64,000 nucleotides of DNA from Onthophagus taurus. Its lineage: Eukaryota > Arthropoda > Insecta > Coleoptera > Scarabaeidae. Position numbers and translations under genes: made by a program. The stretch covers positions 18,972,001-19,036,000 of the forward strand of contig NC_091967.1 of the NCBI RefSeq assembly GCF_036711975.1, written 5' to 3'. Positions 2,891 to 33,745 of the stretch are shown piece by piece. The notes beneath the pieces are model-generated. The model ran no database searches. It had not been told where the DNA came from and worked only from the letters and a program-made list of their open reading frames with translations. Within the stretch, counting starts at the first letter, position 1. Each line of letters opens with the position of its first letter.

Positions 2891-3260
2891 ATACATATAA
2901 AACATATACTTGTTTTACAGTTAGTTGAATTAAATATTACAATAATAGCAATAAAATAATAACTAGGTAGTACTGAAGGAAAATATACAAATTAGTAATA
3001 ATTTTTTTATGAGTATTCGTATTCATTTAATATTTACTCTAGAACAATATTACTTAGAACAACCAATATTTGGTTCATGTAAATTTTAGCGAATTTTTTC
3101 ATTTTCTTCAATTTTACACCATTTCTCACTATTTCCAAGAGTTTTTAGCCATATTAGGATCTTTAGCGTTTGAATACAACCCAACTTCACGACAGTTATC
3201 AAATAATTTTCCACTAACGCCTTTTAAATCATTATATAACGCTGCGACAAATGTTTTTAT
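2890..3260 (-). pseudogene. displaced copy of the SDR-1 last exon and its 3' flank
   Basis: This stretch aligns nearly base for base with 25278-25630, the 3' flank and last exon of SDR-1. On the minus strand, 3249-3079 encodes the conserved tail (GVSGKLFDNCREVGLYSNAK), but a small shift in the AAAAAC run then gives an early TAG. No first or second exon is present, and the homology ends near 3260 before the splice acceptor region. It is a non-functional fragment left by a segmental duplication whose other half lies at 1264-1349. Confidence 0.85.
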
Positions 3261-4670
3261 CCATTTCAGATTTGTCTTACCTTTTAGCAGTTGCTTTTTG
3301 ACACATCTTCCTGTATAAAGTAAGATTTGCTTATCGATGGAAACATATTTGTCGCTAATTATCCAGAAGTACTCATCGTCGAGATTGTGAATGTCGGCGT
3401 TATTAACTACTTTTAAACGCGATTTTTAAATTGCATTTAACTAATATTGCATTGTACTAAAGAAGAAGTTATTCTTAAGAGAGAAAATTTTAGTTACAAA
3501 AGCATTAAATTAGTAAAAATTAAGATACGCGTTTATCAATTTTCATCTATGTGATAGTTTTAGGCGTTAAAGTTGTTTGAATTAAACTTAGTAGGATACT
3601 GCCTTTTTAAACTTTTGATTTTTCATAATCATGTGGTACATAATTACAAAGCTATTAAAATCAAACAAGTATGAAATCATACATCTTGATTATTCAGTAT
3701 CGATATTTAATTCATTAACGTGTATAACCATTTAAAAACAGATCGGAAATGCGCTTTCTCTTTTTACAAGTTTAGATACTTCTCGTTTTTGAAGATCATT
3801 GCACTTGACCCGTGGACACACTTTTAACCTTGACCGAACCTCCGATTACACTAACTAAGAAATCTCGAGTCAATGTATTTTTTACACAATCCAAATTAAC
3901 ATCGAAACTGTTTTATAAAAATTTGTTATTGTAGAATATTTATGTAATACCACTTGAAAAATTTGTATGAAAAGAACATTACTAAAAATGTTAAAGAGAT
4001 GCAAATTAGCAAGTTTTAATGCCTGAGAATCAACGATTTAGTTATTCTAGCCAAACATCATCAGCTTATGTATAAAAGTGTATTAATATAAATATATTTT
4101 TTTAATTATTTTTATTTTAGCAGAAATATACAACAAATATGATATATGAAGATGAAAAATACGAACAATGTAGGATAAAATATTTGTGCACAAATAGTCA
4201 TGTTTTCCTATATAATGGAAAAATAATTAAATAAGCTAAATAATGGAAAAAGTATAAATTATATATAAAGAAAATTAAATACAAACATTACCTTTTTTTG
4301 TGTTTTAATTAAAATAACTTGTGGCCGTGAATCGTCTTATCGGTAGCATAAATCTTCCAATTCTGGAATATATATTGCTAATTAAAATTAAAAAATGTTT
4401 TAAAATTCCCTCTTTATGAATTTATTAACTTGTTTGCATTCCCGTGTAATTCGTGGTAAATGTTCAAAAAAGAAGCTATGGTACTATGTAAATATATCTC
4501 GTTACATTTTTCAATTATAAACAACCCGTAAATATATATGGGACGTTAAAGCCTTTTACGGATTAAAGAAGCTTTAACCACACATGAGGGAATTTATTTG
4601 TACCATCAAAGTTCATTCCTCTCTGAAACCAGATTCCATCCTGTTTAATTTATGTTTCAGCCTTCCCACG
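3261..4670. other. intergenic DNA upstream of the VWD gene, nothing recognised
   Basis: AT-rich sequence with no supported coding exon, RNA gene or complete transposon. It probably holds upstream regulatory DNA of the gene starting at 4723, but no specific site apart from the TATA box can be supported. Confidence 0.4.
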
Positions 4671-4680
4671 ATTAGTACCT

Positions 4681-4689
4681 ATATATAAA
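4681..4689 (+). promoter_or_regulatory. TATA box of the VWD-repeat gene
   Basis: A TATATAAAA-type motif lies about 34-42 bp before the ATG at 4723. With usual TATA-to-start spacing, transcription would begin about 4710-4718, giving a very short 5' UTR. Position and match to consensus are seen; function is inferred. Confidence 0.6.
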
Positions 4690-4722
4690 AGCTTGTTTTT
4701 CGAAGAGACACCATTCCCCAAA

Positions 4723-7700
4723 ATGATACCGAATATTTATCTGTTCCTTGTAATACTAATATTTTTTGGTGTTGAATCCCAATCTCAATGTAATCGAGAT
4801 GTAAGTATTTTTTGGCAAAAAAATAAAGATTTAAAATTATTAAATATATTAATATAAATGTTGTTGATTTTAGCCTACTACCAACTGTGTAGTTTATGAT
4901 AGTTTGCACTTAAAAAACTTTGATGGATCACTTTTGAGTTATGATTCAAAGTGTGGGTACACTCTTGTTTCGGTCAATTCAAAAGGAATCAATTTGGAAA
5001 TAAATCTTCTTCAAAATGTACAAACTTTACAAGTAAAGTATGCCGAGCATGTCTACGATGTTAAAGTTGCAGGTAATAAATAAAATTTTTAATCAAAAAC
5101 AATTGATCTCAACATGACACTAAGAATATTCATAATTTAAACCTCAATTTGTGTCACATTAAGTTAACAAATTTCAAAAGAATTTCAGAAATTAAAATTC
5201 CCATTAATTTTTTAGGTGCAGCAATTGAACTTAAAAGAGATGGAAATGTACAAAGTATTCCTCATGATTTGTCTGGAGTGTCCATTAGTAAACCAGGAGC
5301 TATGGTTATTGTGGAAATTAAAGATTTGGGATTAAAAATACGATACGATGGAAGGGTAATAATATTTTTTATGACATAGTACATTTTAGTATATTTCTCA
5401 ACATATGGTTAGATTTGTAAATTAGTGGTGCCATAAAATTATTGTGTCCCAATAGTAAGTGCTTCAAGAATATTGCTGTTTTTCGCCAATATCAGATTCC
5501 ATATTTTCTAACTTGTGTTCTACTACTTTTCTTTTTATCTATTAAATGGTGCTGCTTTTCTTAGTACTATGTTAAGTTTTTCTCTATATTTTCAAGGGTG
5601 TTGGAAACGAGCTGAGGATATAAATGACTCAATGCAGTTTAAAATTGCGTGTTATTAGTAGTTAGATATTAGTAGTTCAGTAACTCATAATCAGGTCTGT
5701 TCTAATCTTCGCCATTGTATTTTGTTATTATAGTGGATATGTGTTAGTATTTCAGGCTAACCTAATTTTTCCTAGTCTAAACCAGTTTGTTCAACACGTG
5801 TTGATTTCAACTAGTTTATATTAGGAAAAACTACTTTGGCTTGATAATACAGGATGGTTCAGATTTTAATCGACAAACTTTACTAGAACGTAGTACCTGC
5901 CAAAACAACACAAGTTGTTAATATAATCATTCTTTTGTTTTCGAGCTATGAGCGATCAAATTTGAGCCAAAAATTTATATAATGGCTCTGATTCTTGGAA
6001 TGATCTACATCTTATTGCAAAAGTCTAGGCATTGGCGTAGCCGTACTTTTTAGATCTTTTTTCTGGCATATCTGCAATATATTTTTAAAAAAGAACGGTG
6101 CAAGCACCGATCTTTGTGCCAAACCGTTCTTGAGTTTTTTTGGCGAACTCACATAGGACTTTACACATAGGAATTTTTGTCATTCATATTATTTAGCAGG
6201 CGAGCTGTTGATTTAGAACTCTCAATAAAATGTCGAATTTTCAGCATTCTTTGGAATCCTGATTCAATATAAATTGAAAGCGAGAGTACCTGGTCAACGC
6301 AGCTCCGTAAATTTGCGCAAATACCTTATAAATTATCAATAACAAATACTTACCTTCGCGGATAGTTAATATATTAGTCTATCGCTACTTCTAGTACTTC
6401 TATGTACCTAACAAATGTTCTTTTACTACTCAATTGGTCATGTTAACGTTACACTGAAAAAAATGATGCTCATAATATCAATGAACAGTGGTTGTTGACT
6501 GATTTTCATTGTCTCAATGAAGGTTTTCGTTGACACAATGAAGATTTGTTCATAGACTAAAAACGCTGTTTATCAATATTATGAACGCATATTCATTAGC
6601 ACAATGAAATATAATCATTATAGTAATGAAGACCATTCATTGGCTCAAAGAAGTTTTTTGTAATTACAATGAAGGTGTTCATCAAACTTTACATGGTATT
6701 AACGACTATTAGTCATTGATATAATGTAAATACTTCATTGTATTAAAGAAGAAGTTTCATCAATGCAATGATTTGAACTGCTAAGAATATTATTCTTTAT
6801 ATCAATGAATAAAATTCATCAATCACAAACCTACACCGCCGTATTCCACGAATTTAAGTCAGCGATTTCTTTATCGTCAGACCACTGCGCTATCTATAAC
6901 ATATTATAACCATAGATCAAGTTAACTCGTCGCATTGTCGCATCTTTAACAGTGATCAGTTGAGTGAAGAGTATATTTTTCCAAAAATATAAAGAATCTA
7001 CAGGTAAGACAAAAATAGCTGCTAGATAGCTTTTCGTTTTGTTATCAACTGTGTTTTTTTTTTCAGCTTGTAGTGATTTATAGGTAGCTTTACCTATTGA
7101 ACTAATTGCAAAATATTGTTTTTTTAATTGAAATTAGGTACAAAACAACGTTTTCAAATTAACAAACATGTTATGCTTTATTTGTAAAAATGACCATGGA
7201 AATTTTCAATCTCTAAGTAACCATTTCAAACGTTTACATAATCGAAACTCAAATTCCACATTCAGATGTCTGGAATGTAGTCAGGGTTTTCAAAATTTAG
7301 CTTCTTTTAAAAGACATTCGGGTTTATTATTCTACGAATGCATCTTCTATAAACTCCTTAATATCAAATGATAGTTTTAACGAAATATCAACAGATCAAA
7401 CTAAAAACTTTAATATTGCATCAACTTTGCCATGTATTCAACATGAAAAAAAAAATTTAGTGCCACCAGTAATGAAAACATACAGAAAGAAGAATTTCTG
7501 AAAGAATCCCTTCAGAAAAGCTTGTAAGTCCTAATTCTTTCTTCAAATTGAAACTTCTTTCAAAATCAACATAATTTATTTACTGATATATAATCATTAT
7601 AATAATATAATGTTTAATTGACAATATTAAATGTAGGAGTATTACTGTAAAAAAAAGTCAACCACTAGATACACCATCAAAGATTCGCAGGAAGCAGTAA

Positions 7701-10700
7701 TATTTGTTGGTGGTAGTCTTATTGTTAGTGAAGTAGAAGACCGGATACAACATCTTCGAAAAACCAAAGAAATACAATCTTAGCAAGTACCCTAAGGTAC
7801 AAATTTTTAACAATTATTTGATGAGTGTAATGGAATAAAAGAGACTGTAGCTTTTATGTAACTGTAACTTTTATGTAGATTTATTTTTTCCAAATTTTGT
7901 AATCATTAGAGCAATAAACTGCTGATTTCACACAAAATTATACCTTGTCAAAAACTATCACTATCGAGTAGCGTTTTTTTGTGACTCGTATAGATGCAGT
8001 CTTGAAACTACATTTTCAATTTCATTACGTTGAATAAAGAAAAATATAAAATTAATGAAAAACGTCAATGAATTATGTTCATTAAACAATGACAAATTTC
8101 CATTAAATAATAAATATTGTTCATTAAACAATTAAAATTGTTCATTAAATAATGAAAATTGTTCATTAAACAATGAAAATCGATTTCATATAATTAATGC
8201 AACACTCTTCATTGAGACAATGAATTGGTTCATCGGCTGAAAATCCACAACTCAATTCATTGTCTCAATGTAGCTTTTCATTGTATTAATGTACATTTTT
8301 GATTCGGTGTACATATTATCTGAGTAAAATCTAATTTAACCCACCCTGTGGTCAAACAACTTTCAATGTGTTAAAAGGGAAAAATGCAACGTGTTCTCCG
8401 TTTCTAACCTGTCCATCGAGATAACCAGTTTTTAATGTGTCTAGTAGTTTCGAAATGTGATGCCCTAAAGGTCAATGTTCTGTTTCTCCTTCTTTTCTTT
8501 TATCTCATTTACATAACATCCTGTTGCTTATCTGTATCTAATGGAGCTCCTCAGTAAGGACTGAGCTTAAAATAAAATGATAGGTCCTTTTATTTTAAGC
8601 TTCTCATTTCGAAATATATGTACGTTATAAGTCAAGTTCGCACTTTTAATGTAATATTTCGCTCTATCAATTAAATCAATTTGCAATTACGCGTTTCCCG
8701 TTACGGTTAATTTATATATTTTATGATCACTTATAGGTACATTCCTAATTATTCACTTTTCAGTATCTTACACTTTACATTGCTTTAATTTGCGACAGAG
8801 TTTCTAAGGTGACGATTAATATCATCCAAGTACTAATAGTTCTAGTTGATAGCGATTGTCTTATCCACCTATCTTAATAAATAGAACTGTTTGTCAACTG
8901 TAACCCAGATTGCACATAAAATTTTCACAAAGTGATATAATGTTGCACATTTAACACGTTTTAATCCACATAAAAAAAGCGATAGGTAACTTTAGTTTTG
9001 GCAACATCGTTTTAATATTGCTTTAAGTTATTCTCCGACAGATTCATGATTTTGAGCTCATAGCAAATCGTTATTTTAAATTGACGCAAAAATTTTTATG
9101 TTGCAGACTGCAGAAGTTATTCAACGCAATCAATTTAACGATCGTGCAATGTTGGGAATGTGCGGAAATAATGATGGATGCAGTGGAAATGATATGGTAA
9201 TGAAGAATGGTGGAATTGCTGGAAATAATCTTCAATTTGCTGATAGCTGGAGTATAGGTAAGATTTTTTGTTGTTAATCAACAAAACTATTAAAACATAC
9301 ATACAACCATTAAAAAAATTATTAAAATAGTTACGACAAAATCCAAATCATTTTCATCTCGTTGCAACGGTATTTTAAACTGCATCATTAACTTATTCGG
9401 AGGTAAAAAAGATCATATCTTAGGTAATCATTAATTTAGAAATAGTCAAGAATTCAACTGTTGTTTTTCTCAATTTAATTTTTATTCTCGATTATCACGT
9501 TGGTTGAATTCTTGACTTCTACACGCATATACAATTTTTATTGTTTCTTCTTTTTTAATTTATGTTTAAGGTGGATGTAGATCTGGAAATTATCTTAATA
9601 GTTGTGGAACTAATGGTCGTTTTTACGCACAAGCCCAAAATTTTTGTAATAATCTATTTAGCAATCAGAAATTTACAAAATGCAGTGTAATATATTAATT
9701 TCAAATTTGTGATATAAAAAATAATTTTTACTGTGATTATTTTTTAGACATTCAACTCCCAATTTATGAATATTTGTACATCAAATTATTGCAGTTGTAA
9801 ATTGGCAAATAGAAATGATTGCATGTGTGATATGCTAGACGTCTACGCTAGAAGCTGTCAAATTAAAACTAACGATATGATTGATTGGAGAAGTTCTACA
9901 CTTTGTCGTAAGTTGTTTTATTTTTTTTTTTTTTCAAGTAGTGTAATCATAATAATTATTTTATAGCAATTAACTGTAGAAATCAAGAACAACAATACAT
10001 GACTTGCGCTCCTAATAAACGGCAATTATCGTGCAATGAAATAGAAACAGACACATCAAATTTGGATTGCGAGGAAGGCTGTTATTGTCCTAATGGATTA
10101 CGTTTACAGGAGGATAGATGCCTATTTGTCGAAGAGTGTGATTGTTACTACAACAACGTAGCATACAAACCTGGAACATCAATAGCTCAAGAATGCAATA
10201 CGTGCACTTGTACAAAAGGACAATGGATGTGTACAACTGTAAACAGCAAGTTTTTTGAATGTGGTATAGTTTTTAGCAAAGTTTCATTTTTAGAAAATCT
10301 GTCAAGTTGAAGCCGGTTGCTATGCTGATCCACATTACACGACTTTTGATGGTAAAAAATTCGACTTCATGGGAAAATGTATGTATTATGTGGTGCGAGG
10401 AAATGGATTTGATGTTATTTGTGATCATTATATATGGAATGGAGCATTTGTTGTAAGTATATCACCTTTTTCAATAAATTGTAGTAAACTCGATTATGCC
10501 AAAAAAATAATTTATTTTTTATGTAGAAAGATGAAAAATCCTCTATACCATCATATTGCGCAAAAGTTATTGTACAACTAAGAGACGACATCATTGAATT
10601 GGAACAGGGTCGCAAAGTAAAATTAAATGGTTTCAGACTTGAACGATTACCCTTTAATTCTCCATTATTCCGAATTACCGAACCGAGTAGTCAATTAGTC

Positions 10701-13700
10701 TCAGGTACCAAATATTATACTTTTTATATCATATTTAATTTTAATAATTAATTCTAAAATTTTTAGTTTCATTAAGAAATAACGTTGATGTTAATTTTAA
10801 TGGTGATTCTTGGCTCCTCGTTAAAATACCTACCACAATGATAGGAAGAGTGAGCGGATTATTTGGAACTTACACAAAATCGCAAGATGATGATTTCCTA
10901 ATGGCTAATGGTTCTCTTACAACTGATCCGAATTTGTTTGGTCATTCTTGGAAAGTCCCCGGAAGCTGTGCAAATGAATATACAGGACCAGTATATCATC
11001 CATGTAGCATAAATCCAGAAAATCGCGAGAAAGCTGAACAAGCTTGTGCTCCATTAAAAAGTAATCTATTCGCAGATTGTCTTGAAGATATTGAGACAAA
11101 TTACGAAAATTGCATTTATGATGGCTGCGAATGCGTCGATAAAGTAATCATTTTAATTTAATTAACTTAATCTTATATATCTTACATTCTCTATAAAATT
11201 ATAGGTAAAAACTTGCGTTTGCAATTTCTACGCGTTACAAGCAGCGAAATGTGCTGCGAAAGGCAAACCGGTGGATTGGCGAAAAACAATCACTCAATGC
11301 CAAGTTCAATGTCCCGCAGGGCAAACGTACCAAACATGTGGGAATTCTTGCACTCGAAGCTGCGATGATATCGGCGCTAATCCAACATGCGAGTCGTCTT
11401 GCGTTGAAGGTTGTAATTGTCCAGAAGGACAAACGTTGAATGAAAAAAATCAATGTATCCCAATCAATAAGTGTACTTGTGTTTGGGAAGATGGAAGATA
11501 CAATCCTGAAACGACTTTTATAACCGGCGAAAATAAATGGTAATTCATTATCAATAATTTCATTCAAAATATTTTTGTAAATATGAAATTTTTTTAGCAC
11601 TTGCTCTAATGGTAAATGGAATATAATAACAACTACTCCAGATGATAAATCGAAATACCCGGACTTAAATGACCTAAAGAAACAATGTAATGCGGATGAT
11701 TTTATGACTTATACAGGCTGTAAACGAGTGAACACTGTGACTTGTCTGGTAATAACAAATTTAATTACTTTCTCAATCCGAAAATATGTGCAAGAAAAAA
11801 GAGTGCACTTAAACTAAATTAGTTTTGTCCAGGAGCTGAATGGCCTCAGCGTTTGAATATCACAGCAGTATATTTTCATGCTTCACTCCGATTAAGTTAC
11901 TTGGCAGACCCATTTCATTTCGAGTTTCATTTTCGAATTTCATACTCTGCCATTCCGCGCTCTGCTCAATAATTATGTGGAGTTAATTGATAAGATGGAT
12001 ATTGGCATTCTTCACTCCATGTAATCTTTATACCATCAACTGTATGATGCATACAAAACCTTAATGGCATATTTTCGGACATAAATCAATTTGAGAATTT
12101 ATTAATTTAATAATTATTTCTGAGTTGACTAAATTATTTTATTTTTAGAATAAACATCTCAATGAGGATCCAAATTATAATAATTGCCAAAGTGGATGTC
12201 AATGTTCCGAAGGATTTGTTTTTGATGAAGAATTAAATACTTGCGTTAGACCCGAAGATTGTCCGTGCATGTATAAAGGAATTAGTTATGCGGATAAAAC
12301 AACAAGAAATGATAGAAATCAAACCTGGTAATGATTTGTTATAATTTATTCCTTTTTACAAAGCGTTAATTAGATCTACTACTTCTAATAATTTACCTAA
12401 TCTTTATTTTAGTGTTTGCAAAGATGGATTTTGGGCTTGTAATCCATCAGCAGATCATTGGGAAAAATGTAGCATTTGGAATAACGTTCACATCAGGACT
12501 TTTGACGAAACAGTCTATTCTTTTAAAGGAAACTGCGAATATACACTTTTCGAACATTCACTTCCAACTGGTGGAGTATTTAGAGTTACAGTAACGGTAT
12601 GTTAATTTATCTTTTAGTAATCTTAGATAATACTATTACTATCATACCGATTTTAGACGGGACAATGTAATGTTGGTTCATGTATTAAGAGTGCTAAAAT
12701 TTATTACAAAGATGCAACTGGTCGTGAAGATATTGTAACATTTGTAGCTGGTCAAGAATTCGTTCGACCTGGTTTGTTAGCGAATCTTGTTATTACAGAT
12801 TTAGATCTTTCTGTTATGGTTGATGTTATTGGAATGGGAATAAGAGTTGTTTGGAATAAAGGAGGTTGGTTGCACGTACATGTTTCTAGAGTTTGGGTTA
12901 CATGGGTATGTATAATTCGCTTTCTTTTTCACATTAAATAAAAATAAACATTTTAGAATCATGTTGGGTTATGTGGAAAATACGATGATAATCCCAATAA
13001 TGATTTGACAACTCCAAACAATCAAAATGGTGTTACGCAGTTGGTAGATTATTATAGAGTTGATAAATCATGTCCTGGTTGTACTCAATTAAAAGAAGTA
13101 AATTTAATGCCTAAAGATAACCCATGCGAAATTTTATATAGTAATGTTTTTAAAACATGTCGTTACCTAACATCCGTTAATGAATACTATAATAGATGCT
13201 TAATTGATGCTAGTTTACAATTGCTTATACCAGAAAATCAACGCTATAATTATTATTGTCAAACATTATCGGCCTATGCCCAAGAATGTAATGATGTTAA
13301 TGAACCCGTCCAGTGGAGGACAAACGATATTTGTCGTGAGTTAATTGAATTTTATCATTTTTATATATTATATTAATTTATAATTAAATTTTGTTCTAAT
13401 ATAGCTTATAATTGTAAGCCTAACAAAGCATATTATCCATGTGAAACACCTTGCCCCAAGGATACTTGCGAAAAAGATAGTAATTGTCCAGACAGATTAT
13501 GTTCAGAAGCTTGCAATGTTCCACCTTGCCCATTTAATTCAATTTATAAAGACTCAACATACACTCAATGCGTACCTAAAGATCAATGTGGATCTCAGGT
13601 AATACATATAACTTAAGCATTTTTATTTAATTTATAATTTAATATACTTGTTTTTTTAGACTACTGCAACAGTAGAAGGTCATTGTATGGGTGATCCCCA

Positions 13701-16700
13701 CTGCACCACTTTTGATGGTAAATATTACGATTTCATGGGGAAATGTATGTATTATTTAGTCCGTGGTAATGGATTTGATGTTATATGCGATAATTACATA
13801 TGGAATGGAGCTTATATTGTGCGTAAAATATCTTTTTAAAATAAACAAGATTTTAATTAATTTCATTTTTAATAAATACATTGCGTAATTAATTACAGAA
13901 AGATGTTAAATCAACGGCACCGTCATCTTGCGCAAAAGTTTTTATAATAACTCAAGGACATAATATTGAATTAGAACAAAAACTTAATGTTGTTGTAGAT
14001 GGACAAAAACTTGATTGGTTACCTTACGTAAGTCAAGATTTCAGTGTTATTCAAACGAGCAGTGAACAAATAACTGGTATGTTTATGATATTACTTATAT
14101 TTCTCTATTTAGCTATCTTTTCTTTTTTAGTTTCCTTGAAAAATTCCGTTGTGGTTCTTTGGAATGGCAACTCATATGTTACAGTTCGGATTCCTGTAAC
14201 TATGATAGGGCAAGTAAAGGTAATTAAAAACAAATCGATTTATAAAGAATTTTTAATAATACAACCAAATGCCACTTAAAGTTTCTACATTTGAGTTGAG
14301 TCTTTTACCATAATAACTATATTATTAACGAAAGTTTCATGTACAGCATCTTTTGAATTTTTGACATCTATGGTATGCAGTAGGTAATGGAATTGTCCAT
14401 GTTCAGTCAAGATTGGTTTGAATGTTAAGTTTGGTGATAGTTGACTCAATGTTCATCGTGGGTTGTAAGTGATAAATAAAAGCTTGGGAACGATGACAAA
14501 TTATTTATTCTTAATATAAGATCAGTGCAACATGTTTCGAGATTCAAAATCTCTTCATCAGGCACGACTAAAAAACATAAAATTGAAGTAAGAAATTTGT
14601 TATACATATTTTTTAATTTGTTTAGTTACCGTCAATTACTTATGGAGCACAAAATTGAACATCTGACAACGTGGTGAAATTTTATAGGTGATTGGACGAG
14701 ATAAAAGGCGTTAACAAGTTTTTTAAAGGCCTTAAGGGCAAGTTAGTTGGTTACAAATATTCTAAAACAAGATAGAGACACGTGTTATGTTAAAGGAATC
14801 GAGAAAAATGGCCACTTACTCTTCATCGTTAAAAAAAAACTGGTTTTTAAGAAATTGAAATTAATTGAATTGTTTGAAATCTGAAAGGGGAAAGTTTATT
14901 TAGTAAATTTGAAAAAATTAATTAAAATAAGAGTTGCATGACATACAAAAAATTTATAAAAATTATCGTGAAAATTAAAGTTTTATTCTTACGAGTCCAT
15001 CCGCGACGTGAAGAAACTTGAGGTGGACTGAAGGACATAAAATTTGCTAAAAAGTCTTGCGCCGGAAAAGCAAAAAGGCTGTGGAGGGGAGAGGTTAATA
15101 TTAAATGAATTTTAAAAATTGGCGGGTATTATTAAGTTCTGTTGTGTCATTTAAAAGTTTGTTATTGTAATTGTTTAAATTAATATGCAACTCTTCGAGA
15201 AGGTCCATTTCTCTCGATTTCCCCACGTTTAGAAGTAATTTAACATTGTTGAATTCTATTTTATGTTTATGTTTGTTGATGTGTTTGAAAACTGCAGAAG
15301 AGGGTTTGCTTAGGTGTTCTTTGAAACCTTTTTTAATGCTGCGTCCAGTCTGACCAATATAAATTTTATCGTAATCAGGACATTTGATTTCATAAATACC
15401 ACTCAGCTCCTCTTTGTTAAATTGATGTTTATTATTAAAAAGGTGTATATGAATTTTGTTTTGAGAGACAAAGGCAGGGGCAAGGCCAAATTTCAACAAA
15501 TTTTGTTTAAGGGGGTTAACAATAGATGGGTGGTAAGGTAAGGCAATATATTTGGTTTTGGACTTAGTGTGAGGATAGATTAATTTAGTGATTTGTGAGT
15601 TGTGCACTTTATAGTAAATGTTTTGTAAATCTTTTATAGAAAAACCATTATTGAGTCCTATTTTTACAATCTTTTTTATTTCAAGGTTGAGGTTATCATT
15701 ATTTAAAGGATATAACGTTCCTTTAAATTCTATTGAAAAAGAAGCGAAAACTTGCAAATTTATGTTGATCACAAGAATAGGAACTTTTTGGTATAATACA
15801 ATCTGTGGTAGTGGGTTTTCTAAATATATTGAAGTTGATAATACTTTCTTTAATGTTTCTAGTTAACTCTAAATCTAGGAAATTTATTTTGTAATTATTT
15901 TCTTTTTCGAGGGTGAATTCTAAATTGCAAATGCTGTTTATCAGATTGAAAAGACCACCAAGTTTAGCATGACTTTCTTCATAGACAACAAGGATATCAT
16001 CTACGTATCTGGCATAGAAAACAATATCCTTATTGAAAAAATGATTTTTATCTGAAAATAGTTCTTTTTCAAATTCATTAAGGCATTCTTTCCCATAGGC
16101 AAACCGTCCTTCATTTTGTAAAATCTATTATTAAAGGTAAAAAAGTTCTGACTACATACAATCTCCAAAAGACCAATGAAACTATTAATTTCTAATATGT
16201 TTAAATTATTGATATCTTGTGAACTGATCAAGTATTTTGTGATGATAGATAATGTTTTATCGATTGGAACGTTAGAGTATAAATTTTTTATGTCGAAGGA
16301 AACTAGTTTACTAAGGTTTTTAATTTTGAAGGTCTTTAGTTTATTTATTAGATCAGTAGAGTTTTTGATTGTGTGTGTGAAGCTGTTGTGAAAAAGTTTA
16401 TAAAGGAAATTTTGAATTAGTTTTGAAATTTTATTGGTTGGAGTGTTATGATTACTAATAATTGGTCTTATGCTTTTTTCAGGTTTATGCAATTTAATCA
16501 GACTTTTCAAAGAAGGAATGAGTGGGTTCATTTCTAGAGCGTTATATGAATTAATGTTGAATTTAGACAAGAAAGTTGAATTTTCTCTTATGTATTTTCT
16601 AAGTTTGTTACTAAAGGCATTGGTGGGATTATTTTTGATTTCGATGATGCTGTTGTCCATGAAGAAGTCTAGAGTTTTATCAATGTAAGTCATTTTATCT

Positions 16701-19700
16701 AAAATGACCGTGCCCGCGCCCTTGTCTCCTACTGTTAAAATCAAATTGTTGTCTTCGACTTTTTCTTTAAATTTTTTGATATGATTAAGAATAGCTGAAT
16801 GGTTTACATTTAAAGAATTAGGAGTTTTAAATATATCTCCAATCAAACACTTGAATGTTAAGTATCCCCCTTCATGTGATAGTCTAAACTTTCTATCAGA
16901 AAGATATGATTTCAGTAGTTGATTGATCCTATCAAATACCTGAGAAACATCCAGAAAATTGCAGAACAATATTTTAGCTATTCAAACCAATCGTCTGAGT
17001 AGTCTCTTAATAAAGGTTACTCAATACTCTTGATCTATTATAGAATGGCGATTACGAAATCCAAACTGCAAAGTTGGTAATTTTTCATACAATTGATCAA
17101 ACTTGCTCAGCCGCGTTTTCAGATTTTTGAGCATTATCTGTGCTATCTTAAAACATCGCGAGCATACTTCAGTCTCAAGCAGGCATTAAAAAAGTATACT
17201 AACATGATGATTGCATTTCTTGGCAACTTTTTTTTAATATGTCAGTTGTTTGGATTCGATCGTTTTATTAAAATTTGAATTTGCATAATTTGTTCAGACA
17301 CTTTCTAAAAGTAATGTCTGGTGGTGGGGAGACCCCAGCTATCACCACAAAATCGGGCCTTTTTTCGATATTTTTCATCACTTTTGAGAAGTTATCGCCT
17401 ATAACTTTTAAATTAATGTCTGCATTTTATTATCAAAAATTTTAGTTCAGTTTTCAATTTTAGTTTAGGCATTTACTTCTTAACACAATTCCTATCTTGT
17501 CTTTTACTATCAATCCATGATTATGCTACATACTATATTTTCAATATTTTCCAAAAGTGTTCATTTTAATATATAGAGTTGAAATCTTCTTGTATCTAGG
17601 GTCTTTTGGGAACATACACTAAAACTCAAGATGACGATTTCTTAATGCCAAATGGTATAGTTACAAATGATCCAAATATCTTTGGAAATTCTTGGAAAGT
17701 ACCAGGTAGTTGCGAAGGTGAATACACAGGGCCAGTGCATCATCCATGTAGCATCAACCCAGATAAAAGGGTTCAAGCAGAAAAAAGTTGTGCAGCACTT
17801 AAAAGTGATTTATTCGCAGGTATGTATTTTATTAGAAAATTCTTTTACAAAATTCATATAAAAATGATTATAATTCTAGATTGTCTCGAAAATGTGAACG
17901 AAGTTTATGAAAACTGTCTATACGATAACTGCCAATGCACAAATGAAGTATGTTAAATTTACAATTAATTTAATCCAGCAATTCAATTTCTTTTTTTAGC
18001 AATCCACTTGTGTTTGTGAATTTTATTCATCTCAAGGAAATAAGTGTGCGGCTAAAGGAAAATACGTCGATTGGCGTAAAAATGTAACCGAATGTTCCAT
18101 TAAGTGTCCATCCGACCAAAGTTATCAAGTGTGTGGAAATTCTTGTACTCGTAGCTGTGAAGATATAGCAGCAAATCCAACTTGCCAACGTCAATGTGTC
18201 GATGGTTGTAATTGTCCAAATGGTCAAACTTTAGACGGAAATAACCGGTGTATCCCCATAAGTAGATGTCCATGTAAGTGGGGGAACGAAAGATATCCTC
18301 CAGGTTTTTCATTTATAAATGGCGATGATAAATGGTAAAAATAAATTAATAATTAAATTCACGTTTTGGTTATAACTTCGATTTATTTTAGGACTTGTAC
18401 TGATGCGACATGGATTATCACTACAGCTACTCCTGAGGATAAGGGGAAAGATCCCACACCAGATGATTTAAAAACGAAATGTGACGCAAACAAATTTTAT
18501 GTTTACTCAGGATGTAAACGAGTTAATGTTCTAACATGCCAGGTATAAAAGTTGTTTTATTTTATTAATACATTTTTTCTAATACAATATTTACTTTAGA
18601 ATAAACACCTTAACAGTAAACCAAATTATGATAACTGTGAAAGCGGTTGTCAATGTATGGAAGGATATGTACTTGATACAGAATCCAATCAATGCGTTAA
18701 ACCAAGTGATTGTCCGTGTTTGCACAACGGAGTTAGTTATCCTGAAAATTTTGAACGCAATGAAAGACAAAGAACATGGTAAGATTAAAAAAAGGAAATT
18801 TCTTTAGTGTAATTTTTATTTTAATTAGTGTTTGCAAAAACGGTGGATGGGATTGTAATACACTATCAGAGTACTGGGAAAAATGTAGTGTTTGGAGCAA
18901 TGTGCATGTAAGAACTTTCGACGAATTAGTTTATTCTTTCAAAGGAAACTGCGAATATACATTATTCGAGAGTTCACTCAGTGAATCATCTGTATTAGTT
19001 AGAGTTACATTAAAAGTAAGTTACAATATTCATTATTGTGAACAGTTAATAATTTTATTTTCCGAAATAGACAGTGGAGTGTTCTTCTGGATCTTGCATT
19101 AAAAACGTTAAAATTTACTGTGAAGATGTGAATGGTAATCAAGACCACGTTGTTTTTACAAATGGGGAAACTTTCGTGCGACCTAACCAATTAAATCATT
19201 TAGTAATAACAGATTTAGATCTTTCAATAATGGTTGATGTCATTAAGATGGGCGTTAGACTTGTTTGGAATAAAGGAGGTTGGGTACATATTCATGTTTC
19301 AAGAATTTGGACTACAATGGTAAGATGAGAAAAAATTTTTTAATTAATACTAAAATAATACTTTATTTTATTTTAGAATCAAGTTGGTTTATGTGGAAGA
19401 TATGATAATAATCCAAACAATGATTTAGATACTCCAAATTTCAAAAATAGTGTTAAAGAAGCTGTGGATTATTATCGACTTGATAAAACATGTCCGGGAA
19501 GCAGTGAATTGCCGGTAACGAACATACTAATGTTTCCCACTTTTATATTTTCTTAATTTGGAACCACTCCTCCTTACCTTTAATGTTACTTCTCAAAAAC
19601 GTAAGCCATTGGATAAGCCCCAGAGGAACATGTTAATTAACCCAAACTAATTTCTCTTATAACATGACTTCAATTGCCATTGGATTTGTAATGTTGAATA

Positions 19701-22700
19701 AAAATTATTTAGGTATGTACATAATATTCACCATGTTATACTGCCAACAGTATAAAGTACATATTGATGACAGTCAACAAGATAACGATAAATGATGTTT
19801 GCACAAAATTACATATAGTGCTTGCAGAAGACTTCCTTCTGGTTGCGGAGGAGATACGATCAGTAAACGACTGAATACTGCTGACAAAGCTAGATACTGT
19901 GAATTTGTAGACTAGAAATTGTGATTACAGGATATTTTATTAATTAGGACTTTAAGAGTATCTCTTTAGATGATGAACCTTCAGTGATGCGATGTCAATA
20001 AGGTCTAATATGTATTAGTTTGTCATCATTTCAAATAGATATACGTTATGCACATTAAAAATGGTATTACGGGTATCTATATTTACCGGTTTGGATAACT
20101 CAAAACAGATGGGAGAAAAAATGTTTTTCATTGGTGTCATTCCACACGCTGACTTTGGAAAGAACACACTACGTGGAATGTGACAAAGGATGTCATTTGA
20201 TGTGGGATGATCACCAAATTCCAGACGAACACCAAGAAGTGTTTTTGGCAATACATCACGTGTTCACTGACGCATTTGTCGGATCCTACAAAAGTACCCA
20301 GTTACCAAGCGTTAGTTAATGCTTGTTAATTAATTTCCCGTAAAGTGAAGAAAATGTTATCAGAAGATGCTCTAGGGAAGTGTTAACTTTGCTGATCACA
20401 GTTTGCGCAGGCAAAACCAATTTAAATTGATGACAGACGCCGAAATAATCTTTCATAAAATTAAGTATTGGTTGAATTATCCGTTCCAATTACAAGACCT
20501 GAAATACAACCGGCTGTTCGTTTTGCAAATTGAAACAATAAATGCGGTTGTCGAAATTAAATTAACTTTCTAGATCTATCTCTGTCTAACTCTTGTAATC
20601 TAGACTTTCTAGATTACAAGAGTTAGACATATTGCGTCATCAGAAAGCCTAAGATACATCAAGAAAAATCGTCGAATTCAAACTGGTAGTCTGAAATCAG
20701 TCACGAGGTGTCTTGGTACGCCCATTTCATTCAGGATGTGCCAGAGATTGTGCCATTGAACGCAATCGAAGGCCTTTATGTAATCTATGAAGCATAAATG
20801 ATAAATTCTGTGGCCTTTTCTATGATTTGTCTTATGTTCAACATTTGTTCTCGCATTCCACTTGACACAAAGCCAAGCAATCTTGCTCCTGTAGCATTTG
20901 TGACAATATATAGTGCTTAAGGCGTTTTGATATTATTTAGACATTACTTTGCGAGATGAAGGCAATTGTTCGATAATTGTCACATACCTTTTCTGAACCA
21001 TCTAGTACTCATGGTATCCACCCTGATCTCAAATTAGTTGACATATTCTGTGCACAGCATCGATTCTCGGTTTCCTATTATCATTTCGACTACGATGTTA
21101 TCCTCTCCTGGTGATTTAGCTGCTTTTTGATTTCTTTATATAGTGCTGTCTTTTTTGTTTTGGTCGAGTCAGCGCTGTATTTGTGATCAGGTTAATTTCG
21201 GCTATTTCTTCATTAGTTTTTGATTTAGTAAAAACACCTTCATTTATTTTCTTCCTTCATCATATTCAGTTACCCTTTCATTAAACTCTCCCAAAATTAT
21301 TAAATCACCTCATAAATAATAGATAACAACGATTAAGAAATAAAAATTTTTAGAACGTAAACATTTTGGTTCCTGAAAACACCTGCGATATTTTATTCAG
21401 TGAAGCATTCAAAAAGTGTCGTCTTATAAAACCAATTGATGAATATTACAGAAGATGTCTAATTGATGCTAATACACAATTATTAAAACCGGAAAATGAA
21501 AGAACTAATTATTATTGCCAAACATTATCTGCGTATGCCCAAGAATGCAATGATATTAAGCAACCTGTAAATTGGAGAACGAATCGAATTTGTCGTAAGT
21601 GTTTTTCTACTTAAAGCAATTAAATAAGTATTGTTTATTTAAATATATTATCGGTTTTAGCGTATGGTTGTAAAACAAATACGGTGTATTATCCATGTGA
21701 AACTCCTTGCCCAAAAGACACTTGCCAAAGTAACGTTAATTGTCTAGATAAAGTTTGCTCGGAAGCATGTAATGTCGCACCATGTCCATTTAACACGATT
21801 TATAAAGATTCTACTTACAAGCAATGTGTAAAAAGAGACGAATGTAATGGTGTTATCGTACGTCAACCTTTTCTTTTTAATTTAAAATTTTTAATTTAAG
21901 ATTTTTTAATTTTAGAACGTTCCTACAGTGGAGGGACATTGTGTAGGCGATCCACATTGTAAGACTTTCGATGGTAAAAAATTCGACTTTATGGGAAAAT
22001 GTACTTATTATTTAGTAAGAGGTAATGATTTTGATGTAATGTGTGATCATTACATATGGAAGAATGGAGCATTCGTTGTAAGTACATTTTTTAAAACTAT
22101 ATTGTTAAACTTTAAACATGATTTGAATTTGCAGAAAGATTATAAATCAAAAGCACCATCTTATTGTGCAAAAGTAATAATCCACTCTGGAGGTAACATC
22201 ATCGAATTAGAACAGAAACATAATGTTAAAGTTAATGGCCATACAATTGGTTTTCGTCCTTATATTAATTCGGAATTCCGCATTAATCAACCGAGTAGTG
22301 AATTAACCACCGTTTTATTAAATGGTCACGTCACTGTAACATGGAATGGCAATTCTCGCGTTACAGTTAGCATTCCTACCACAATGATAGGAAAAGTAAA
22401 TGTAATATTTATTTTAATTTGTTATTATCAAAATAAGCATTATTTTTATCGTAGGGATTACTTGGTACATTTACTAAGTCTCAAGATGATGATTTCTTAA
22501 TGCCTAACGGTGTCATAACAAAGGATTCAACGGAATTTGGAAATTCCTGGAAAGTTCCTGGTAGTTGCAAAGATGAGTATACTGGCCCAGTTGAGCATCC
22601 TTGTGTAGCTAATCCAAATAGAAAAGCTAAAGCTGAAGAAAGCTGTGCTGCGCTAAAAAGTGATTTATTCAAAGGTAATAATCCCATAATGATATATTTC

Positions 22701-25102
22701 GAGAAATGTATTAAAAATTAATTATTAATAGGGTGCCTTGATGATGTAAATAGCGTTTATGATGATTGCCTTTATGACGCTTGCCAATGCACAGATGAAG
22801 TAAGTTAATTTTAAAATTACATTCAATTTTAATTTAACCCAATTCTATGTAATGCAGCAAAAAACTTGTGTTTGTGAATTCTACTCCATTCAAAGTGATG
22901 AATGTGCAGCAAAAGGAATTAACGTAGATTGGCGTAACAAAATCGCACAATGTGCACTTCAATGCCCAGCTGGGCAAACTTACCAAGTTTGTGCAAATCC
23001 TTGTACTCGAACATGTGAAGATGTCTCCACCAGCCTAACATGTAGACGGATCTGTGTTGATGGATGTAGTTGTCCTGAAGGGCAGACGTTAAATAGTATT
23101 AACCAGTGTGTTCCAATTAATACATGTCCGTGTATATGGGAAAATAAACGATATCCACCAGATTTTACGTTTATACATGGTGATAAACTAAGGTAAGTAG
23201 CATTGATTTCAATAAATAATAATTTAATAAAAAAACGTTGTTACTTAGGGTATGTAAAAATGCGATATGGAATGTGACCACAGCTACCCCAGACGATAAA
23301 ACTAAATATCCAACCACCACCGAACTCAACAAAAAATGTAGCTCAAATGATAACCTTGAATACTCTGGTTGCAAACGTGTCAACCCCGTAACATGTCAAA
23401 ACAAACATCTTAACGAGAAACCAAATTATGAAAATTGTCACAGTGGTTGTCAATGTGAAGAGGGATCGGTATACGATACAGAGGAAAAGATTTGTGTTTA
23501 TCCGGAATTTTGTCCTTGTTTGTATAAAGGAATAAGTTTTCCAGATAAAACGGAACGACATGAGAGAAATCAAAAATGGTAAATAATTTATTAAAAATAT
23601 TATTTTTTTTGTTCTTTTTATTTTTAAATCGTTACTTTAAGTACTTGTCATGGTGGAGCTTGGAGTTGCTCTCCAGAAGCCGACCATTGGGAGAAATGTT
23701 CCGTTTGGAATAACATTCACGTCAGAACTTTTGACGAACTAATTTATTCCTTTAAAGGAATTTGTGAGTACACGTTATTAGAGCACTCATCTTTAACTTA
23801 TGGAGTATTTAGGGTCACACTTACGGTATGTGGCTTTTTATACAACAAATTAATAAATTAACACTTATACTTTTCAGACTACGCAGTGTAACGTTGGATC
23901 GTGTATTAAAAGTGTCAAAGTTTATATTCGTGATTCAAAAGGCAACGAAGATAATGTCATTTTGGTAACTGGCGAAGAATTTATACGGCCAAATAAATTA
24001 AACAATTTAGTTATAACAAATATGGAACTTTCGATTATGGTCGATGTAATTGGAATGGGTGTCAGAGTTGTATGGAATAAAAGTGGTTGGGTTCATATTC
24101 ATGTTTCGAGATCTTGGACAACACGGGTAAATTTTACTAGTTTGCAAATTAAGTAGTTAGTATGTGTAAAATGGTTTATATTCAATAATTTAGGCGATTA
24201 TGCCTATCATATTTTGGTACTCAAAATACTCATTTATATTGTTTATTTAATTTTTAAATTAAAACATTTAATTTTAGAATCATATCGGTTTATGTGGAAA
24301 ATACGATGATAATCCTAAAAATGATCTCGACACTCCAGCAAGCGTAAATGATGTTCCTGAATTCGTAGATTATTACCGTGTTGATAGAACATGCCCAAGA
24401 AGTTCCGAAATTGAGGTAAATCAATTTAATATAATTACTGTTATAATTTAACAACAAATTTCTTTTGTAGAAAGTAACCTTGGTAGATAACTTCTGTGAT
24501 ATCTTATACAGCGAAAAATTTGAAACATGTCGATTACTAAAACCTGTTGAAGAATATTATAATAGATGTTTAATAAACGCAAATTTACAACTTTCAATAC
24601 CCGAAAATCAACGAACTAATTATTATTGTCAAACATTGTCTGCTTACGCTCAAGAATGTAACGACGTTGGAGTACCTGTTAATTGGAGAACAAACACGAT
24701 TTGTCGTAAGTTTAAATTACAAATTTACATTGAATTAAGAGTATTAATTCTAATATTAATGATTTAGCTTATCAATGTCACAACGATAATGCTTATTACT
24801 CTTGTGATACACCGTGTCCAATAGAAACTTGTCAGAAGAGTGTTAAATGTCCAGATAAAGTGTGCGCAGAAGCTTGTAACTCAAAACCATGTCCGCCAAA
24901 CATGATTTATAAAGATTCCACATACAAAGAATGCGTACCAAAGGATGTATGTCAAGGAAGAGATTGTAACAGCGGGTGTATTTGTCAACCACCTAACGAC
25001 AACGGATCGAATAATATCGATCTATACGCTGGATGTAAAGACGGAAAATGCTCATGGTCTCAATTAATTTTTAATATTTACAATACGGCTACAAGTCAAT
25101 AA
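4723..25102 (+). CDS. secreted multidomain VWD-C8-TIL protein, 41 exons, about 2804 aa
   Basis: Exons: 4723-4800, 4874-5072, 5216-5355, 9107-9257, 9571-9686, 9748-9907, 9967-10238, 10294-10452, 10527-10704, 10767-11143, 11205-11539, 11598-11748, 12149-12327, 12413-12596, 12657-12905, 12957-13335, 13405-13598, 13660-13818, 13899-14076, 14131-14219, 17600-17819, 17880-17947, 18000-18334, 18392-18542, 18600-18778, 18829-19015, 19071-19319, 19377-19514, 21354-21594, 21661-21857, 21916-22077, 22135-22401, 22455-22674, 22732-22799, 22858-23192, 23249-23578, 23642-23825, 23878-24126, 24278-24415, 24471-24705, 24768-25102. All junctions are GT..AG and the phases add up to 2805 codons with stop. The first ~20 residues are a signal peptide (hydrophobic core [11 protein letters not shown]). 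Residues ~25-372 form VWD-C8-TIL; three super-modules follow (~373-1167, 1168-1964, 1965-2804). There is no TM segment, GPI signal, discoidin domain or cystine knot. The architecture recalls zonadhesin, IgGFc-binding protein, SCO-spondin and hemolectin relatives: extracellular, disulfide-rich, perhaps adhesive or multimerising. The exact role is unknown. Confidence 0.9.
5848..5995. mobile_element. terminal fragment of a TACAGGRTGGTTC-type MITE
   Basis: About 110-140 bp match the left end of the 1.09-kb element at 38463-39548, including the terminal TACAGG, the ACTTTACTAGRACGTAGTA block and the TTTTGTTTTCGAGCTATGAG block. The opposite end was not found nearby, so this is a solo end in intron 3. 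Confidence 0.7.
5990..6320 (-). pseudogene. decayed LINE reverse-transcriptase fragment
   Basis: Minus-strand translation around 6150-6080 gives [14 protein letters not shown], a damaged form of the GLPQGSVLAPxLF box of LINE reverse transcriptases. It has stops on both sides and no other complete domain. It lies in intron 3 of the VWD gene. Confidence 0.5.
6449..8315 (+). mobile_element. DNA element with C2H2 ORF between arrays of TTCATT/AATGAA sites
   Basis: The ends are short imperfect inverted repeats (TACACTGAAAAAAATG at the left; CATTTTTGATTCGGTGTA at the right). Both subterminal zones (about 6460-6830 and 8030-8300) are packed with TTCATTGT, CAATGAA and related half-palindromes. In the middle, 7168-7371 encodes 67 aa with a C2H2 finger ([11 protein letters not shown]...HFKRLH) and a second C-x2-C...H finger (CLECSQGF...FKRHSG). 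After it the frame is interrupted, and no DDE domain is seen, so the copy is probably non-autonomous or decayed. A clear target-site duplication was not found, and the superfamily is not assigned. Confidence 0.6.
8316..9106. other. remainder of intron 3, nothing recognised
   Basis: AT-rich intron sequence up to the acceptor at 9105-9106; no coding exon or transposon terminus recognised. Confidence 0.4.
10294..13598 (+). repeat. VWD super-module 1 (exons 8-17)
   Basis: Order: VWD-A (start motif [20 protein letters not shown]; end motif [14 protein letters not shown]), C8, TIL ([10 protein letters not shown]), a Cys-rich stretch (exon 12), a second TIL-like unit ([10 protein letters not shown]), VWD-B ([19 protein letters not shown] to [14 protein letters not shown]), C8 ([13 protein letters not shown]), TIL ([10 protein letters not shown]). 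Exon 10 fuses what are three exons in modules 2 and 3, and exon 16 fuses two. Confidence 0.9.
11749..12148. other. 400-bp intron 12 of the VWD gene, nothing recognised
   Basis: Longer than most introns of the gene and less AT-rich in its middle (about 11820-12060), which suggests an old insertion, but no terminus or coding motif could be recognised. Confidence 0.35.
14475..16985 (-). mobile_element. Penelope-like element (RT plus GIY-YIG endonuclease), decayed
   Basis: The minus strand encodes a Penelope-type reverse transcriptase at 16969-16001 ([35 protein letters not shown]). The YVDDI catalytic box near 16010-15990 is reached only after a frameshift. The downstream frame 15772-15101 carries the GIY-YIG endonuclease ([20 protein letters not shown], then KEHLSK). 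RT followed by C-terminal GIY-YIG is diagnostic for this class. It lies in intron 20 of the VWD gene, antisense to it. The region upstream of the RT is missing, so the copy is 5'-truncated; the non-coding 3' part reaches the hammerhead-like motif at 14524-14566. Confidence 0.9.
14524..14566 (-). ncRNA. hammerhead-ribozyme-like motif at the Penelope element 3' end
   Basis: Read on the minus strand: CTGATGA (14561-14555), one A, a 6-bp stem GAGATT/AATCTC with a 3-nt loop (14553-14539), then GAAAC (14538-14534). This is the conserved core order of hammerhead ribozymes, which are known in Penelope-like element termini. The extra A before stem II makes the fold imperfect, so cleavage activity is uncertain. 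A similar core occurs at 44901-44931. Confidence 0.5.
16990..17285 (-). pseudogene. LINE reverse-transcriptase fragment
   Basis: Minus-strand translation near 17095-17035 gives [17 protein letters not shown], the QFGFRxxHS box that opens LINE reverse-transcriptase palms. Stops occur on both sides. It is a separate fragment next to the Penelope-like element within the same VWD intron. Confidence 0.5.
20560..21290 (-). pseudogene. decayed LINE (RTE-like) reverse-transcriptase fragment in intron 28
   Basis: On the minus strand, separated frames give [13 protein letters not shown] (the KAPGxDGI box) near 21120-21080, a segment matching EYVN...R..W.RKG, then [19 protein letters not shown] and [12 protein letters not shown] near 20900-20730 (the YRKAFDSVxHxxLW box). 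Several stops and shifts make it dead. It fills much of the 1.84-kb intron 19515-21353 of the VWD gene. Confidence 0.65.
20584..20628. repeat. perfect 21-bp hairpin with 3-nt loop
   Basis: Bases 20584-20604 and 20608-20628 are exact reverse complements, separated by CTT. It lies in the transposon-rich intron 28 of the VWD gene, inside or at the edge of the LINE fragment. Confidence 0.9.
21916..25102 (+). repeat. VWD super-module 3 (exons 31-41)
   Basis: Same order again ([28 protein letters not shown]). Exon 32 fuses two VWD-A exons, and exon 36 fuses the Cys-rich and second TIL exons. At the exon 35/36 junction the usual Cys of the Cys-rich stretch is changed (KLRVCKN against KCTCSN in module 1). 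The final TIL is followed by a unique C-terminal tail of about 50 residues with [10 protein letters not shown] and a CKDGKC pair, ending ...TATSQ at TAA 25100-25102. Confidence 0.88.
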
Positions 25103-25141: not shown

Positions 25142-25147
25142 AATAAA
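25142..25147 (+). promoter_or_regulatory. polyadenylation signal of the VWD-repeat gene
   Basis: AATAAA 40 bp after the TAA stop at 25100-25102, in a normal position for a metazoan 3' end. Confidence 0.6.
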
Positions 25148-25453
25148 TAATTTTTAATTCTAAACATCGCTTTATTTTATTTCTTTTTAGCATAATCTAT
25201 AAAGTTTTTTATTAATGTATGATGCGAAAGAAGTGGCTGGCTGTTGGAGTTTGGCTGTTTCTTGCCTTCCTTTCGAATATACTTGTTTTACAGTTAGTTG
25301 AATTAAATATGACAATAATAGCAATAAAATAATAACTAGGTAGTGTTGAAAGAAAATATATTAGTAATACATTTTTATGAGTATTCGTATTCATTTAATA
25401 TTTATTTTAGAACAATATTAATTAGAACAACCAATATTTGGTTAATGTAAATT

Positions 25454-33200: not shown

Positions 33201-33745
33201 ATATTGTTTTCTCAAAACCTAAAAGTTATTTCTCAAAACGGGTTGTTTCATAGAAAAGAGGGCACTTTTATTAACACTTTAGGAAATTTTCATACTCATA
33301 TTCCAAGAAATCGATTTTATACGAATTTCTGAAACTTAATCGGCGATAATTGCATAGTTCGAAAAAATTGTCGATCATTCAAAAATTTATTTCTCAAAAA
33401 CTAAAAGCGATTATTCAAAACGGCTTGTTGTATTAAAAAGACGATACTTTAATTAATTATTGGTGATATTTCCACAAGGATTCGTCAAGAAATGAATTTT
33501 ATAGCAAATTTTGAAAATTATCGATGAAAATTGCAACATCGAAAATTTTATCAAAACTTCAAATATAGTTTTCTCAAAAACTAAAAGTTATTTCTCAAAA
33601 CGGGTTGGTTCATAGGAAATAGGGCACTTTTATTGACACTTCAGGAAATTTTCACACTCATATTCCGAGAAGTGGATTTTTAAAACATAATCGGCGAAAA
33701 TTGCAAAATTTGAAAAAATTGTCGATTATTCCTGTGAATGGTGGA
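30225..33745. repeat. tandem array, ~9.5 copies of a ~363-bp dimeric unit with a 1080-bp higher-order repeat
   Basis: The landmark AAGGATTCGTCAAGAAATGA recurs at 30591, 30954, 31317, 31680, 32034, 32397, 32760, 33114 and 33476 (a divergent one at 30261), with spacings 363, 363, 363, 354, 363, 363, 354 and 362. Each unit holds two related halves of ~180 bp: one with CTCAAAACGGGTTGGTTCAT, one with TTCAAAACGGCTTGTTGTAT. The trio of units at 31317-32396 is repeated almost exactly at 32397-33475, including the two 354-bp units. It fills the space between SDR-2 and SDR-3; no genes inside. Confidence 0.95.

Follow-up and report, generated by a model that had tools for sequence, protein, structure and literature searches.

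The window, by which we mean the whole stretch of 64,000 nucleotides of the Onthophagus taurus genome that was analysed (C2:18972001-19036000 in genome coordinates), contains on its forward strand a gene of 41 exons (4723..25102), located from the sequence, with a coding sequence of 8415 nt that is translated into 2804 residues and in which the only stop is the terminal one. All of its introns (40/40) are of the GT-AG type. An earlier note, made from the letters of this DNA, had given the span as 10294..25102, which corresponds to exons 8-41; the gene itself starts at 4723. The product, which is predicted to be secreted, has the overall layout D1-[D2-D'-D3]x3 (Table 1), is rich in cysteine (223 residues, 8.0%) and closes with a C-terminal tail of about 47 residues after module 3 that holds 5 cysteines and ends at a TAA stop. 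The division of the three modules over exons 8-17, 18-30 and 31-41 is the one that had been proposed, and it returns in the exon model. Three introns are long (intron 3, 3751 nt; intron 20, 3380 nt; intron 28, 1839 nt) and these sit within D assemblies, whereas the junctions between D1 and module 1, modules 1 and 2, and modules 2 and 3 each consist of a single in-frame intron (55, 61 and 58 nt, respectively). The open frame and the splicing, at the level of DNA and not of RNA, thus bear out the claim that this is one gene and not several.

Table 1. Features of the gene and its direct surroundings (positions are those of the window; A and B units are the D2- and D3-type assemblies of a module)
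Feature	Position	Strand	Basis or remark
Relic of a further copy, decayed and with stops (last exons: C8-3, perhaps TIL3)	3974..4189	+	C8-3 E 2.6e-4; TIL3 E 4.4, weak
TATA-like box TATATATAAAAG	4680..4691	+	About 30 bases 5' of ATG; seen in sequence; ACATATAAAAG in the corresponding position of the tandem copy
Exon 1: start codon and hydrophobic, signal-peptide-like start	4723..4800	+	Signal peptide judged by eye only
D1 assembly, VWD-C8-TIL-E, exons 1-7	4723..10238	+	Pfam; grouping with hemocytin D1 100/98; best VWF stretch is D1
Exons 1-7	4723-4800, 4874-5072, 5216-5355, 9107-9257, 9571-9686, 9748-9907, 9967-10238	+	
Module 1, D2-D'-D3 (A1 with ADPH, TIL'-E', B1), exons 8-17	10294..13598	+	Alignment
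Module 2, D2-D'-D3 (A2 with GDPH, TIL'-E', B2), exons 18-30, with long introns 20 and 28	13660..21857	+	Alignment, Pfam
Reverse transcriptase and GIY-YIG-like remains in intron 20, outside the protein	15104..16981	-	RVT_1 8.8e-6, GIY-YIG 6e-4, both under Pfam cut-offs
Module 3, D2-D'-D3 (A3 with GDPH, TIL'-E', B3), exons 31-41	21916..25102	+	Alignment, Pfam
AATAAA polyadenylation-type signal, 3' of the stop	25142..25147	+	Sequence

The domain content was established with Pfam, which was run over all 2804 residues in five pieces and returned seven VWD stretches, the number that had been counted before, and two C8 and three TIL stretches in each of modules 2 and 3. For the first A unit Pfam gave no C8 at E <= 0.01; the region nonetheless aligns to D2 of VWF. 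Neither F5/8 type C (discoidin) nor CTCK domains were found by Pfam across the 2804 residues, in line with the earlier statement that discoidin and cystine knot are missing. The CxGEC motif is absent from the protein, and it has no Ser/Thr/Pro-rich region (the highest S+T+P share in any 60 residues is 0.33).

The three modules, blocks of about 800 residues, are 62.1, 63.3 and 63.7% identical in pairwise comparison over 793-795 positions. The strong motif conservation that the earlier note described holds for a 13-residue motif that is identical in all three modules, but DDDFLMPNG reads DDDFLMANG in module 1. Intron positions are repeated as well: of the 11 in the aligned core of module 2, module 1 has 8 and module 3 has 9. 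A spliced aligner written for this analysis, given the module-2 protein and the module-1 DNA, placed all internal exon ends of module 1 exactly, which together with the substitution rates below speaks against a chance resemblance. Between modules dS is near saturation (1.42-1.66) while dN is low (0.26-0.27; dN/dS about 0.16-0.19), as in an old repeat under selection. A tree of A-type versus B-type domains had been named beforehand as the refuting test; in our tree of 18 D assemblies (window units and outgroups) the three A units grouped together and so did the three B units, both at 100/100, B joining VWF D3 (80/81), A joining FCGBP (83/90) and D1 remaining unplaced. The refuting outcome thus did not arise. 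Together with the 62-64% module identity this separation upholds the view that the whole two-VWD block was the unit of duplication. Duplication of single domains was rejected, since the tree and the shared introns demand whole blocks, and so was recent gene conversion between the modules, as identity varies rather little over the length of the block and dS amounts to 1.4-1.7.

In a search against the PDB, module 1 gave one unbroken run to VWF 393-1013 (229.5 bits), the best stretch in MUC5AC being 412-1198; the matched run comprises D2, D' (TIL'-E') and D3. A novel domain order was thus rejected, as the block is D2-D'-D3, and the part that had been labelled 'Cys-rich/TIL' is actually E plus TIL'-E' (D'). 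The top entry for module 1 by total score was FCGBP (622.8 bits), through six A-unit matches that score at most 119.2 bits each among the matches listed. Searches with separate parts gave a mixed picture. The first unit (exons 1-7) preferred D1 of VWF (102.2 bits; D2 71.0, D3 62.7), and its best stretch elsewhere was D1 in MUC5AC, D3 in MUC2 and D2 in MUC5B. The B unit of module 3 preferred D3 of MUC5AC (86.9 bits; D1 73.1, D2 14.4), D1 over D3 of MUC2 (68.0 and 54.2 bits) and, for four of the five long chains of VWF, D2; the C8-TIL part of B1 also had mixed preferences among D assemblies. Because these single-domain searches conflict, it is the unbroken order and the collinear alignment that carry the equivalence with the D assemblies of vertebrates (D1, D2 and D3). 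Relatives of D'-B1 were not found in a viral contig collection, and exon 16, the only exon compared with a phage collection, had no match there.

In a tree of 46 assemblies the D1 units joined D1 of hemocytin, the insect clotting protein (100/98), the A units hemocytin D2 (100/99) and the B units hemocytin D3 (91/79); A units and hemocytin D2 grouped with two FCGBP assemblies (96/88), and vertebrate D1, D2 and D3 stood apart from their insect namesakes. An earlier tree of 38 rows, which contained one chimeric D1 row that was replaced when eight more assemblies were added, had a joint insect and vertebrate D3 group (81/83) that was lost in the larger tree; the hemocytin groupings held or firmed. 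Deep equivalence with vertebrate D1, D2 and D3 is thus at most suggested, as the trees disagree and do not settle it. MUC2_D3 (incomplete) was left out of the 38- and 46-row trees and the D1 of the four-module relative described below out of all trees. The A units as FCGBP orthologues, a reading of the 18-assembly tree, were rejected, for with hemocytin D2 added they group with the latter (100/98, 100/99). Introns of hemocytin D2-D'-D3 matched in position (within one column) and phase in 7/9 cases for module 2 and 5/9 for modules 1 and 3, a comparison in which the hemocytin model had been queried with the window protein, which could favour like breaks, and in which each break needs its own splice sites. 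Random intron placement gave a mean of 0.13 matches and never 7 in 20000 trials. The gene thus shares ancestry with the N-terminal half of hemocytin, and the block, which had been considered foreign to the hemolectin/hemocytin layout, corresponds to D2-D'-D3 of hemocytin's D1-D2-D'-D3 N-terminus.

Genome-wide profile matches at exon level numbered at least 48 for PF00094 and at least 31 for PF08742, and the window gene is one of at least seven relatives that were modelled, or of eight when a distant one that was not placed in a tree is counted. Hemocytin itself (C2:6241327 onward) contains D1-D2-D'-D3, two F5/8 type C domains, a stretch resembling LDLa (E 1.4e-4, narrowly short of the Pfam cut-off) and more VWDs; its model, built with the window protein as query, has one stop. 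A tandem copy of the window gene (C2:18951468-18967466) has three modules, equivalents of all 41 exons, 92.6% amino acid identity, cysteines at the same places (223/223) and a similar TATA-like box directly 5' of the ATG. The pair has a dS of 0.090 and a dN of 0.034, with a dN/dS of 0.38 overall, 0.57 in module 3 and 0.70 in D1. The tandem copy stops in the same exon as the window gene, and AATAAA was not found in the 240 bases examined near its end. At its exon-13 acceptor the AG is absent where expected and the aligner took another in-frame acceptor. Its equivalents of exons 17 and 18 form a single exon (C2:18958196-18958548), inside which modules 1 and 2 meet in one frame, which ties the modules into one product.

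The remaining relatives differ in the number of blocks. One gene (C2:4152684-4172610) has four modules; we do not claim it to be intact, because its model has 5 stops in the aligner reading and unspliced ends after modules 1 and 2, as well as a doubtful end of the D1 VWD. In its module 3 an E-like domain follows C8-3 directly and TIL3 is missing; the same may hold for modules 1 and 2, for which the model gives no clear joins, whereas the last module has TIL3. Four genes hold a single block, in the sense of one block within the DNA fetched (C3:18014990-18025924, - strand; C3:18046485-18061055, +; C7:34490698-34494221, -; C3:27128461-27142264, +); the outer exons of these models are uncertain and the C7 model is without D1 start. 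A more distant one-block relative starts from C2:4175685 and was read in part, with 2 stops and with D3 outside the part read. About 7 kb 5' of the last of the four one-block genes lies a unit of the D1 type (C3:27120163-27121182) that begins with a signal-peptide-like stretch of its own; tblastn found no D2-D'-D3 between the two.

A tree of modules (15 rows, without the relative at C2:4175685, in which the module start pattern was not found) paired the window modules with the same-numbered modules of the tandem copy (100/100, 100/100 and 99/100), and thus the triplication is older than the tandem duplication of the gene. The four modules of the four-module gene formed a clade of their own (98/98), which means that the block was multiplied separately in that gene or has been homogenised since, and the four one-block genes formed another (97/99). 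In the 46-assembly tree the B units of the three multi-block genes made up one group (99/99). An intron at alignment column 533 was present in 7/7 of the modules examined of multi-block genes versus 0/5 of the others (the tandem-copy rows were left out of this intron comparison). The 15-row tree does not fix the branching order among the module groups, nor the order of module duplication. The family shows both tandem and separate expansions, and the window gene is under purifying selection.

In VWF and mucins polymers arise through disulfides between D3 assemblies of different chains. Two cysteines hold the D3 dimer of MUC5AC together, Cys1132 in C8-3 and Cys1174 in TIL3 (PMC11933400). We placed both in our alignment by spacing, as the first cysteine of CECFC and the cysteine in GQCEWHY. 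Their VWF equivalents we take to be C1097/C1099 and C1142. The B units of the window protein read YNYYC, TNYYC and TNYYC at the C8-3 site, and the TIL3 cysteine is missing in 3/3 as well. The C8-3 CxC cysteines are missing in all 14 D3 copies of the family that were read (window gene 3, tandem copy 3, four-module gene 4, one-block genes 4) and the extra TIL3 cysteine in 10/10 copies with a readable TIL3. Hemocytin of the same genome keeps both sites (CECLC and SERC). The CGLC motif is intact in 0/7 VWDs of the window protein; this loss alone is uninformative on polymerisation, because hemocytin here also lacks the first cysteine (xGLCG). GDPH occurs in 2/7 VWDs (A2 and A3), A1 has ADPH and A3 of the tandem copy GNPH. 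In FCGBP such GDPH sites self-cleave, the pieces being held by a disulfide, and an Asp-to-Asn change stopped cleavage in D10 (PMC10880436); with ADPH in A1 and GNPH in the tandem A3, cleavage thus cannot be essential in every copy.

These data fit best, and in our opinion probably, with a secreted, FCGBP-like string of D assemblies that derives from the N-terminus of hemocytin and whose length is set by repetition inside the gene. In this scheme, in which the order of events is inferred, the cysteines that join D3s would have been lost in the lineage (those of C8-3 are missing from the single-module relatives as well), and multiplication of D2-D'-D3 would have taken place within the gene. The product would be a long, cystine-rich and probably calcium-stabilised string, that presumably packs non-covalently and in which the gene, rather than polymerisation through disulfides, fixes the length and the number of contact sites; at the GDPH sites of A2 and A3 the chain may cut itself at the Asp-Pro bond, the pieces being held by disulfides as in FCGBP. 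By analogy a role as clot, coat or glue component of a secretion would fit best. Hemolymph transcripts of blister beetles are enriched in motifs that include VWD, C8 and TIL (PMC8576976).

The proposed product can be set beside four known systems. It has the D1-D2-D'-D3 N-terminus, the unit groupings and up to 7/9 introns in common with hemocytin/hemolectin but differs in having D2-D'-D3 three times, in the D3 interchain cysteines (0/3) and in the absence of F5/8 type C, LDLa and later VWDs. FCGBP, the IgGFc-binding protein, is described, in the part of the source drawn on, as 12 D assemblies with three repeats of three and without a disulfide polymer (PMC10880436); it resembles the window protein in its long D-assembly string, its repeated multi-D block and its GDPH sites (absence of a polymer being judged here from cysteines only), but its repeat consists of three D assemblies and GDPH occurs in 11/13 (PMC10880436), versus a D2-D'-D3 unit and 2/7 in the window protein. 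VWF, MUC2 and MUC5AC have D1 and then D2-D'-D3 in the same order, with which the module aligns continuously; the window protein differs from this group in having no CTCK, no Ser/Thr/Pro stretch and no D3 interchain cysteines. Spiggin, the nest glue of sticklebacks, is likewise a tandemly duplicated VWD/C8/TIL protein from a mucin line turned glue, of which some members are without multimerisation motifs; it differs in being a fish protein derived from MUC19, for which multiplication of D2-D'-D3 is not described in the part of the source drawn on (PMC4989455).

Other explanations have to be weighed against this. The protein may be a concatemer in which beads of the VWF/mucin assembly are joined by the peptide chain itself into a filament of fixed length without interchain disulfides, which we regard as unlikely; each D3 of MUC2 and VWF is embraced by the D1D2 of another molecule (PMC9169620), after which disulfides lock the D3s. 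Gain or loss of blocks (1, 3, 3 and 4 in this genome) could then tune filament length. A covalent polymer of the VWF/mucin type, in which D3s of different chains are disulfide-joined in acid granules and three D3s per chain would yield a network, seems improbable. The layout is indeed the one that templates D3-D3 bonding in VWF and MUC2 (PMC9169620), and the odd cysteine count, identical in both tandem copies, leaves at least one cysteine without an intrachain partner, which may bond another chain or stay free. However, both D3 interchain sites are empty here and the C8-3 one throughout the family whereas hemocytin keeps both, and CGLC is lost (though hemocytin here is likewise without it). 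With the D3 interchain cysteines, CTCK and a Ser/Thr/Pro region absent, a VWF/mucin-style disulfide polymer is unlikely, and the earlier suggestion of an 'extracellular polymer' is unsupported in that sense.

The remaining explanations concern the gene itself. That two or three separate genes, or alternatively spliced modules, have wrongly been read together would agree with the long introns 3, 20 and 28, the transposon remains in intron 20 and a gene model drawn from sequence alone; we consider it quite improbable, as the long introns lie inside D assemblies, the module junctions are short in-frame introns and one of them is replaced by continuous exon in the tandem copy. Just as doubtful is a decaying duplicate under little constraint, to which the relic at 3974-4189, the missing AG at the exon-13 acceptor of the tandem copy and the higher dN/dS in module 3 and D1 could point, but against which stand the frame that is open over 41 exons, the full set of cysteines kept in the pair and the overall dN/dS. 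A strict hemocytin that acts in hemolymph clotting only, whose discoidin and C-terminal part would have been overlooked or dropped through an error in the assembly, would account for the shared N-terminal layout and intron positions; it is very hard to reconcile with the hemocytin with two F5/8 type C domains, an LDLa-like stretch and more VWDs elsewhere on C2, with the TAA and AATAAA at the end of the window gene and with the stop of the tandem copy in the same exon.

The FCGBP-like string that we favour is thus assembled from known parts; what seems new is the multiplied D2-D'-D3 with lost D3 locks, which we did not find in the open-access literature searched (a multiplied D2-D'-D3 block in an insect did not appear among the titles and abstract openings listed). 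The N-terminal layout of VWF is present in insect genes besides hemocytin, and the family provides a natural test of what D2-D'-D3 does when no disulfides lock it, and of whether the mechanics of a secreted filament depend on the number of repeats.

The surroundings of the gene contain further traces of duplication and of mobile elements. The relic lies between the two tandem genes, so that a third copy may have been lost. The segments 2904-3258 and 25277-25628 are 91.6% identical, i.e. the DNA 3' of the gene, beside a dehydrogenase, also occurs 5' of it, which could mean that the gene was duplicated along with its neighbour. Genes for short-chain dehydrogenases follow in a row at 25685-56646 (- strand; adh_short in 5/5 ORFs scanned), and similar DNA is also found 5' of the tandem copy (C2:18942395-18948537). 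Remains of a reverse transcriptase lie upstream (2202-2936, - strand, RVT_1 2.4e-26), and those in intron 20 are presumably of the Penelope type. The TCAGG telomere pattern gave 0 matches in a search that skips simple repeats. Long tandem arrays occupy 26515-28272, 30287-33680 and 54427-55686, with units of 153, 363 and 457 bases, and at 59585-63897 RING-like (under Pfam cut-offs) and MATH domains are encoded by a gene that we take to resemble TRIM37.
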